From Desulfovibrio sp. (GTDB taxonomy: Bacteria; Bacillota; Dethiobacteria; DTU022; UBA8154), in the NCBI GenBank assembly GCA_020060185.1, contig JAGVAS010000151.1, forward strand, positions 1 through 41,955: a stretch of DNA of 41,955 bases, given 5' to 3'. Shown one piece after another: positions 17,641 to 38,405 of the stretch. The notes under the pieces were generated by a model. That model was not told the DNA's origin, did no database searches, and saw only the letters and a program-made list of their open reading frames with translations. How positions within the stretch are numbered: the first letter of the stretch is position 1; the number at the start of each line of letters is the position of its first letter. Both the position numbers and the translations under genes were made by a program.

Positions 17641-17920
17641 GCTAATAGCCACGATACTGCGGCTCACAACAGGAGATGGAAATGGCGCACCAACTCGAGC
17701 AAGCAAACATTTTTCCCGTCCCACAACGAGATGTGCAGCTGGGTTTGTGGGGGCTGCTGGCAGAGCCGAATTGTTTGAGCAGCTAAAAGCTCTTAGCGAA
17801 GCGAGAGTTGAAGGCGGCCCTGCTTACATGGATGCCAGCAGCCGGCAGGCAAAAAGGATGTGAGCTCTGCCGGGGAGGCCGCCCGGAAGCCTGAGATGAG
17901 TCATGGAGCTTTCCGCGACA
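17641..17920 (+). repeat. Dispersed structured repeat, copy A
   Basis: Two blocks match other copies in the window. The 5' block (CCACGA..CTGCGG.TCACAACA..GATG.AAATG, from about 17649) matches the start of copy B. The 3' block (17781-17920) matches copy C at 38211-38345, sharing AGCTAAAAGCTC, GGCCCTGC, CATGGA.GCC.GCAGCC, AGGATGTGA and CGGAAGCCTGAG in the same order. The hairpins carry compensatory differences. It lies just upstream of proS and ends about 65 bases before the chosen start. The divergence from the other copies implies an old element, or RNA structure under selection. Confidence 0.65.
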
Positions 17921-17986
17921 ACACCTGAACGGGCATCATGCACGCTGTTACACATTCTTATCTTAGGAAAGGAGTTCAATATCAAC

Positions 17987-31940: not shown

Positions 31941-32080
31941 ATTAACTGCCACGACCCTGCGGGTCACAACAATGGATGAAAATGACCGGGTTTAGATCCC
32001 GCCATTGTTCCACAGACGCAGCGTTTTGCTGTTGGCGGAGCGACTTGTGAAGCGAAGCAAAAAGCTCTGCGCTATTTTCA
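31941..32080 (+). repeat. Dispersed structured repeat, copy B (short form)
   Basis: From CCACGACCCTGCGGGTCACA it runs through AACAATGG...CCATTGTT (an eight-base-pair stem enclosing CGGG/CCCG), then the 5' arm GCAGCGTTTTGCTGTTGG and GGAGCGACTTGTGAAGCGAAG, nearly identical to copy C at 38130-38210. It then jumps to the 3' end sequence (AGCAAAAAGCTCTGCGCTATT), so the central hairpins and the 3' arm of copy C are missing. It looks like an internal deletion form. It sits just upstream of the arg T-box leader. Confidence 0.75.
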
Positions 32081-32129
32081 TATTGACTTTTTAACGGCCT
32101 GGTGTTAAGATTTCTTCAAGACAATTGCA

Positions 32130-32427
32130 TAGTATCCGAAGAAGGGGAGAGTAGGAGCAGGAAAAGCCTAAGTGAGCCGGGGCCAGTGCAAACCCGGCGC
32201 TGGAACTGCCCTGAAGCGCACCCCGGAGGCGAAAGCTGAAGCTGGAGGCAGGCCTTTCCTTTGATGAACGGGCTTTTCCCGGTGTGTAGGCTTATCCGGT
32301 TAGATCCGTTAACGTTATGCTGCTGGAATTCCTGCAGCAGCCTTGAGGAGGGCCCCTGAGGGGCCAAAAAAGGTGGTACCGCGAGAATGCCTCTCGTCCT
32401 TTTGGGAAGAGAGGCTCTCTTTATTTA
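32130..32427 (+). promoter_or_regulatory. Arginine T-box riboswitch (specifier CGC)
   Basis: The leader shows the T-box order: GAAGAAGGGGAGAGTAGGAG (with the AGTA bulge) near 32140-32158, the stem I distal loop GCCGGGGCCAGTGCAAACC, and the specifier region GAA-G-CGC-A at 32213-32220, so the codon is CGC (Arg). The conserved T-box sequence AGGTGGTACCGCG is at 32371-32383. A terminator follows: GCCTCTC (32389-32395) with GAGAGGC (32409-32415), extended by GAGA/TCTC, then TTTATTT. Uncharged tRNA-Arg would stabilise the antiterminator and switch on argC onward. The arginine operon downstream supports the assignment. Confidence 0.92.
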
Positions 32428-36891: not shown

Positions 36892-37837
36892 TCTGCGCGG
36901 CAGGCATTTTTTATCCCTGCAGGATTTTACCTCGACGGAAATCGCGGCTCTGCTACATTTTGCCGGGGAACTTAAGCAGCGGCAAAAAAAAGGCCAACCC
37001 CACCCTTTGCTGGCCGGTAAAACGCTGGGAATGATTTTCCAGAAACCTTCCACGAGAACCAGGGTGTCCTTTGAGGTGGGCATGTGGCAGCTGGGAGGGT
37101 ATGCTCTCTTTTTGAGCATCCAGGAACTGCAGATGGGCAGGGGGGAACCCATCAAAGACACTGCCGCCGTCCTCTCACGCTACGTAGACGGAATCATGAT
37201 CCGCACCTTTAACCATAATGAAGTGGAGGAGCTGGCTTCTTATGCATCTGTTCCCGTCATAAACGGCCTCACGGACCTGCTGCATCCCTGCCAGGCCCTT
37301 GCCGATCTGCTTACTGTTAAAGAAAGACTGGGGAAGCTGGCCGGGCTGAAACTTGCTTATACCGGCGATGGAAATAACGTGGCGCACTCACTGCTGCTGG
37401 GGTGTTCCAAAATGGGTATGAATATTGCCGTAGCGGGGCCCGAAAAATACTGGCCTCTCCCGGAAATAGTGTCAAAAGCAAAGGAGAATGCCCTGGACAG
37501 CGGGTGCAGCGTAGTGATTACTGAAGACCCCCTGGAAGCCGTGAAAGATGCCGATGTGATTTATACAGATGTCTGGGCCAGCATGGGAAAGGAAGCAGAA
37601 AAAAAGGAGAGAAAGAAAATTTTTGCTCCCTACCAGGTCAACGACAACCTGGTTAAAGCGGCCAGGCCCGGGGCGCTGGTAATGCACTGCCTGCCCGCTT
37701 ACAGGGGTGAAGAGATAACTACCGAGGTTCTGGAAGGAGAGCAGTCTGTAGTCCTGGACCAGGCCGAAAACCGCCTCCATGCCCAGAAATCCCTCATGGC
37801 CTTACTGATGGGAGATGAGCCCAAAATCAGAGTCTAA
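36884..37837 (+). CDS. argF: Ornithine carbamoyltransferase
   Basis: GTG 36884 follows GGAGGTG by seven bases; a TTG at 36878 is closer to the site than usual. The 317-residue enzyme joins carbamoyl phosphate and ornithine to citrulline. The carbamoyl-phosphate loop is KPSTRTRVSFE, with the HPCQALADL and MHCLPAYRGEEI motifs. The Cys-Leu-Pro segment marks the ornithine site. It overlaps argD and is translationally coupled. No carbamoyl phosphate synthase genes are in this operon. After argF the operon is interrupted by repeat copy C. Confidence 0.96.
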   Translation: MNSLRGRHFLSLQDFTSTEIAALLHFAGELKQRQKKGQPHPLLAGKTLGMIFQKPSTRTRVSFEVGMWQLGGYALFLSIQELQMGRGEPIKDTAAVLSRYVDGIMIRTFNHNEVEELASYASVPVINGLTDLLHPCQALADLLTVKERLGKLAGLKLAYTGDGNNVAHSLLLGCSKMGMNIAVAGPEKYWPLPEIVSKAKENALDSGCSVVITEDPLEAVKDADVIYTDVWASMGKEAEKKERKKIFAPYQVNDNLVKAARPGALVMHCLPAYRGEEITTEVLEGEQSVVLDQAENRLHAQKSLMALLMGDEPKIRV

Positions 37838-37901
37838 TTACTATAACCTATCGTTTACAATAATGGATGAAAATGATCTTGATAGAAACCGTATTATGAT
37901 C

Positions 37902-38007
37902 GGGGACATTCCCCGACGCTTCACCTCTTAGGTAAGGGGACGCACCTCTTTTCTAAGGTGACGGGACACACCTCTTGCAGAGGAATGTCCCCATGGAATG
38001 TCCCCAT
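37902..38007. repeat. REP-like repeat cluster nested in copy C
   Basis: GGGGACATTCCCC (37902-37914) can pair with GGAATGTCCCCAT, which occurs twice in tandem (37982-37994 and 37995-38007). Between them CACCTCTT occurs three times, twice after GGGAC(G/A)CA. The theme resembles REP sequences moved by IS200-like RAYT transposases, but no such gene is in the window. Confidence 0.6.
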
Positions 38008-38170
38008 ACCTTATTAAGGTGGCGCAAGGCTGTGGCGAGCGACATGTGCATGAGCAGCAAACAGGTTCAGCGATGCGACGGCTTGAGATAGCCCGGCGGA
38101 CATGGAAGTCCGCCGCCGGACAGCGCGAAAAACATGACCGGGGTTTAGATCCCGCCATTGTTCCACAGAT

Positions 38171-38378
38171 GCAGCGTTTTGCTGTTGGTGGAGCGACTTG
38201 TGAAGCGAAGCTAAAAGCTCACGTTGAAGCGAAGGTTGGAGATGGCCCTGCCGGCATGGAAGCCGGCAGCCAGGAGGTGAGTAGGATGTGAACTCTCCTG
38301 GGAAGGTCATCGGAAGCCTGAGCTGAAACGTAGAGCTTTCAGAGCGGAACTTGGAGCTCCGCCAACAGCAAAAGCTGC
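38171..38378 (+). ncRNA. Candidate mobile structured RNA (possibly HEARO/omega-RNA-like)
   Basis: The 5' arm (38171-38194, GCAGCGTTTTGCTGTTGGTGGAGC) pairs almost perfectly with 38356-38378 (GCTCCGCCAACAGC, then AAAAGCTGC), with one bulge and one G-U. It encloses at least three hairpins: GCCGGC-ATGGAA-GCCGGC (38251-38268), AGGAG...CTCCT (38272-38299) and GAGC...GCTC nearby. Copy A keeps the inner hairpins despite base changes. Size, structure, dispersal and lack of an ORF suggest a mobile noncoding RNA. Likeness to HEARO RNAs, the guide RNAs of IscB elements, is my impression only. Confidence 0.5.
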
Positions 38379-38405
38379 GCTATTCTAATTACGCTATTCT
38401 AATTA
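38378..38405. repeat. Exact 14-base tandem duplication
   Basis: CGCTATTCTAATTA occurs twice back to back (38378-38391, 38392-38405) at the right end of copy C, 20 bases before argG. It may be a slippage product or the trace of insertion. Confidence 0.9.

Follow-up and report, generated by a model that had tools for sequence, protein, structure and literature searches.

The structured stretch between argF and argG belongs to a dispersed family of elements whose RNA core is related to the TwoAYGGAY RNA (Rfam RF01731), and we hold this dispersal and kinship with high confidence. The stretch lies in a contig of 41,955 nucleotides, here called the window. Our leading explanation, which we regard as moderately probable, is that the family is a high-copy, MITE-like element whose cargo, a TwoAYGGAY-type RNA, would act as a CsrA decoy when transcribed. 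Within this explanation, the homology, structure, copy number and recent insertion were observed, together with the inverted ends and target duplications of relatives.

The composite element and its copies

The initial annotation described three related places in the window, which we refer to as copies A, B and C. The features of these copies are as follows.

~37833-38405, plus strand: copy C, the whole composite element in the argF-argG gap, read from the sequence
37833-37840, 38384-38391 and again 38398-38405: TCTAATTA flanks of copy C, read from the sequence
37902-38010, no strand assigned: REP-like pieces GGGGACA ... TGTCCCC, read from the sequence, a separate repeat type
38016-38129, plus strand: second arm, of type X, which shows partial homology to the core and contains hairpin GGCGGACATGGAAGTCCGCC
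38131-38384, plus strand: main unit (type Y), in which a leader hairpin precedes the long closing helix, the rod and the apex
38188-38359, plus strand: conserved core of 172 nt, a TwoAYGGAY-like rod and three-way-junction apex, 201 bits with core model R1, with covariation
38248-38269, plus strand: apex hairpin 1, loop AUGGAA, GGA at 38258-38260
38270-38301, plus strand: apex hairpin 2, whose loop contains UAGGAUGU, GGA at 38284-38286
17641-17932, plus strand: copy A, divergent and complete, between an aminotransferase gene and proS
17760-17932, plus strand: core of copy A, GGA at 17830-17832 and 17856-17858
31941-32086, plus strand: copy B, leader and closing helix without the apex, just upstream of the argC T-box leader

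Copy C is a composite in which the REP-like pieces are followed by a related second arm and then by the full unit. The relation of the type X arm to the core is seen in cross-matches between positions 179-292 and 354-434 of the copy C query. The type Y unit starts with a small leader hairpin, GACCCTGCGGGTC, which is followed by the closing helix and a long rod; the fold computed for copy C contains the closing helix that had been described, which exceeds 20 bp. The REP-like repeats are spread over the whole family and order, more widely than the type Y element.

The kinship of the three places is borne out by the alignments, where copy C matches copy B over 80 nt at 96%, and copy A over two stretches, 98 nt at 74% and 30 nt at 83%. 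Copy A is a divergent full copy (97.9 bits with model R1, E 2e-24). Copy B gave no match to core model R1. Since its leader and closing helix are kept while the whole apex is gone, it is a deletion derivative. A T-box leader (RF00230, 106 bits) is found directly behind copy B at 32130-32404, upstream of argC. At copy A, the longest proS ORF begins within the element (17903-17983); the true proS start is suggested to lie downstream of it because a ribosome-binding site, aggaaaggag, is located immediately 5' of position 17980.

The family extends far beyond these three copies. The window's own genome comprises 2.47 Mb in 200 contigs and is 89% complete. A BLAST search of it with copy C, which the initial annotation had proposed as a means to count copies, returned 68 matching stretches, and at least 39 core matches were found. 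A chance resemblance of the copies is therefore excluded. Many of the matching stretches are located at contig ends; repeats break assemblies, so this location is expected for such an element. Core copies were also numerous elsewhere, with 38 in G003, 21 each in G004, G009 and G016, and 19 in Dethiobacter alkaliphilus (G020); matches that carry names locate the order in the surroundings of Dethiobacter. With a model derived from the conserved core, this RNA was detected in 26 of the 71 genomes examined from the order and in 29 of 399 genomes sampled throughout the phylum. No match to the element was found in the plasmid collection. Paired core copies were noticed near each other in several genomes, often inverted (loci L102, L104, L100 and L226).

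Insertion sites, ends and movement

The mobility of the element is well supported. In the congeners G003 and G004, argF and argG are separated by about 30 nt and the element is absent, which makes copy C an insertion that took place in the lineage of the window; ArgG of G004 is 97% identical to that of the window. The TCTAATTA flanks of copy C are likely a target duplication. The argF stop codon sits inside the left TCTAATTA flank, whereas the stop in G004 occurs earlier, and the C-terminus of argF (window 37810-37840) thus appears to have been altered through the insertion. The window genus, copy C included, shows only these flanks, and no clear inverted terminal repeat was found in it.

The ends are better defined in relatives. 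In genome G253 the same core sequence occurs in three copies at unrelated sites, all with inverted ends CTGAGTTATCCCC. Two of them are bordered by exact 9-bp target duplications (ATTATTCAT and TACTGCCAC) while those of the third copy match at 8 of 9 positions, and a relative in G341 has a similar duplication. We take the CTGAGTTATCCCC ends and 9-bp duplication to resemble those of IS4-family (IS10-like) transposons. The element ends in D. alkaliphilus are CACTACAGCGAAAA (CACTACAGCG), a pattern that occurs 47 times in that genome with up to 2 mismatches, against 4 times for a control pattern. Solo MITEs of about 130 bp in the same genome (L204 and L210) have the ends of the RNA-bearing copies with the apex absent, as in copy B. 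The ends in G253 and D. alkaliphilus differ, so that a single RNA core is found within more than one type of end sequence, depending on the genome.

The copies in this family are short, ORF-less, intergenic and present in high number, which are the traits of MITEs. In the proposed explanation the element is non-autonomous and would presumably spread through transposases acting in trans, with different end sequences in each lineage. Among the listed end pairs of D. alkaliphilus, none frames a transposase-sized stretch of less than 3 kb, and no autonomous parent or mobilising transposase was found among those pairs or, by Y1_Tnp search, in the window's own genome. That search gave a single Y1_Tnp fragment at a contig end. 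A Y1 mover (RAYT/IS200-type) was rejected for the element since this lone fragment fits the separate REP-like pieces better, and it could be the RAYT-type transposase of those repeats (window 37902-38010; G000:C46:17172-17411).

The initial annotation was correct in describing the element as mobile, noncoding, ORF-less and structured. The class and mover that it had suggested, a HEARO/omega-RNA moved by an IscB-type element, were both contradicted, and we assign this reading a negligible probability. The element does share with HEARO RNAs a dispersed, mobile and ORF-less character and an elaborate structure. However, RF02033 matched none of the copies at E<=1 and nothing anywhere in the genome, the search for an IscB-type (RRXRR) protein in this 89% complete genome was empty, and the candidate was rejected at the search sensitivity used. 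The RNA relative found was RF01731 instead. To our knowledge, IS200/IS605-type movement makes no target duplications, and the duplications of the relatives are therefore a misfit with it.

The RNA core and its TwoAYGGAY relatives

The core forms a rod, at whose tip a three-way junction carries two hairpins. The folding stability of the copy C core (150 nt) corresponds to z = -6.0. Beyond what composition explains, the plus strand of the element is the more stable of the two. Among 21 copies, double changes were observed in 25 of 48 predicted pairs. In 70 model-aligned copies, 93% of 2907 cells are paired and double changes occur in 37 of the 48 pairs. The covariation score of these 70 copies is 0.274 compared with 0.112 when shuffled and at most 0.039 with partners slid; the copies come mostly from other genomes. 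Their alignment was fitted to the model, which biases these figures toward the structure, but the difference from the shuffled and slid values is large. Aligning the family phylum-wide with MAFFT yielded a poor consensus, and we worked from subgroup and model-based alignments instead. The compensatory differences that the initial annotation saw in copy A are found across the family too.

Both AYGGAY-type hairpin loops on a common stem are present in the family (ATGGAA/ATGGAT/AGGAT), as in TwoAYGGAY. A permissive Rfam scan placed weak TwoAYGGAY matches exactly at the apex of two different subfamilies. Over the 71 genomes of the order, RF01731 matches coincide with the core copies and reach 47 bits in G068, above the gathering cut-off of 43 bits. 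Independently, at eight loci from the phylum scan, Rfam calls three TwoAYGGAY sites above the cut-off, with coordinates that nearly coincide with those of our model; these copies, at L226 and L230, match the full model (1-168) at 54.5, 53.5 and 46.2 bits. The window copies do not reach the RF01731 threshold, and a copy elsewhere in the same genome (C105) matches the full model at 40 bits, below the cut-off. Since relatives found by the same core model do pass, homology of the element to TwoAYGGAY is well supported even though the window copies alone fall below the cut-off. No group I or II intron, riboswitch or other Rfam family matched the copies over threshold.

TwoAYGGAY, described in 2010 (Weinberg et al., PMC2864571), has no known function; Rfam types it as Cis-reg and lists it in the clan of CsrB (CL00106). 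The window family has the same rod, three-way junction and two hairpin loops, but differs in being high-copy, recently inserted and provided with transposon-like ends. The passages on TwoAYGGAY that we consulted, including those in PMC2864571 and PMC4333381, give no description of it as mobile. A mobile-cargo context, conserved CsrA-type loops and an association with csrA are now added to this RNA.

The Rfam type raises the possibility that the element is a cis-regulatory leader or intercistronic RNA which controls the downstream gene, such as the arginine and proline genes in the window. We consider this improbable. Copies A, B and C are each codirectional with amino-acid or aminoacyl-tRNA genes, as this reading expects, and the same-strand intergenic location given by the initial annotation stands for these three. 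It fails for the family, where 18 of 61 copies run with both neighbour genes, 22 against both and 19 are mixed, the other 2 being undetermined. Family-wide, the orientation toward neighbouring genes is therefore random. This speaks against cis-regulation as a general role, and many copies may be silent. The same argF-argG pair is also found in congeners without the element, and TwoAYGGAY was judged not to be cis-regulatory in the account by Weinberg et al. that treats it (PMC2864571).

GGA loops, CsrA and the role of the cargo

The GGA of the loops is kept in most copies while the stems vary. It is found in loop 1 of 93/98, 64/66 and 28/28 copies in three sets, the last of which is phylum-wide, and in loop 2 of 81/98, 56/66 and 28/28 copies. 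Both loops together have it in 78/98, 56/66 and 28/28 copies; in some copies of the window's own genome the loop 2 GGA is lost (AGTCA). A GGA hairpin at the loop 1 position was observed in 16% of shuffled copies and in none of the reverse complements. With GGA in two hairpin loops, the core has a trait of CsrA-sequestering RNAs, which have at least two such sites. Some loops read ACAAGGAUGU; this corresponds to the central part of the CsrA consensus published for hairpin loops, RUACARGGAUGU (PMC4347634). CsrA binding was also proposed for TwoAYGGAY in a motif survey of Rfam families (PMC4333381). Judged from these loops, binding of CsrA by the two GGA hairpins is predicted with about even confidence.

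A csrA gene was found in 14 of 26 carriers of the core and in 10 of 45 non-carriers (p=0.009). When carriers were limited to at least 3 copies and genomes to at least 90% completeness, it was found in 6/6 carriers against 8/28 non-carriers (p=0.002); both tests ignore the kinship of the genomes. No csrA match was obtained in G016 (21 copies, 87% complete) or in the 89% complete window genome, which has flagellar genes and fliW. In the latter, contig C169 terminates inside an ABC ATPase gene, and the same gene directly precedes csrA in G004 and G002. The missing csrA is likely an assembly gap because its syntenic position falls past the end of C169, and a true absence was set aside for the same reason.

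In the preferred explanation, the cargo consists of the long rod and the three-way junction with two GGA-loop hairpins. A copy would usually be transcribed by read-through from the host operon, and its two hairpins would then bind one CsrA dimer, so that the RNA titrates CsrA as a decoy. A copy in the sense orientation, as in the arg operon, would place a CsrA site into the host mRNA. Given the random orientation, and since copy C yielded no promoter-like site, many copies may lack transcription of the right strand. The element resembles the CsrA-sequestering RNAs of the CsrB/RsmZ type (CL00106) in having GGA in hairpin loops, and differs from them in its two putative sites per RNA, its many dispersed copies and the lack of a visible dedicated promoter.

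A rival reading is a plain MITE, whose hairpin or cruciform would serve at the DNA level in excision, replication or host-factor binding; TwoAYGGAY would then be a mistaken MITE family and the GGA unrelated to CsrA. We consider this unlikely, though a serious competitor. The random orientation, the inverted ends with target duplications and the missing promoter-like site are all consistent with it. Furthermore, helices derived without G.U showed no strand-specific wobble excess, with a weak asymmetry of 42 G.U to 37 A.C. In model-aligned copies a G.U excess was seen instead (89 vs 55 and 35 vs 24), and wobble asymmetry gives no clear distinction between a role as RNA and one as DNA hairpin. 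Against the plain MITE, the GGA loops and covarying stems persist across the phylum despite differing ends and duplication lengths, and loop bases would not stay conserved for a DNA hairpin alone. The excess stability of the plus strand and the G.U excess of the model-aligned copies also speak against it.

Bacterial MITEs and dispersed repeats such as bcr1, ERIC and BOX are short, ORF-less, high-copy, intergenic and modular and are confined to narrow lineages. The element has all of these features except the last, since its RNA core with protein-site-like loops recurs phylum-wide inside different ends. We tentatively suggest, at somewhat less than even confidence, that several unrelated MITE families, found across the Bacillota, carry a CsrA-binding RNA decoy, which may set the number of CsrA sites and seed them into operons. 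If true, the spread of transposons in Gram-positive bacteria would be tied to a rewired network of a global RNA regulator. Three CsrA-family genes were observed on one contig of D. alkaliphilus (C22:146340, 153739 and 155550), and three are also present in G007, G011, G015 and G017.
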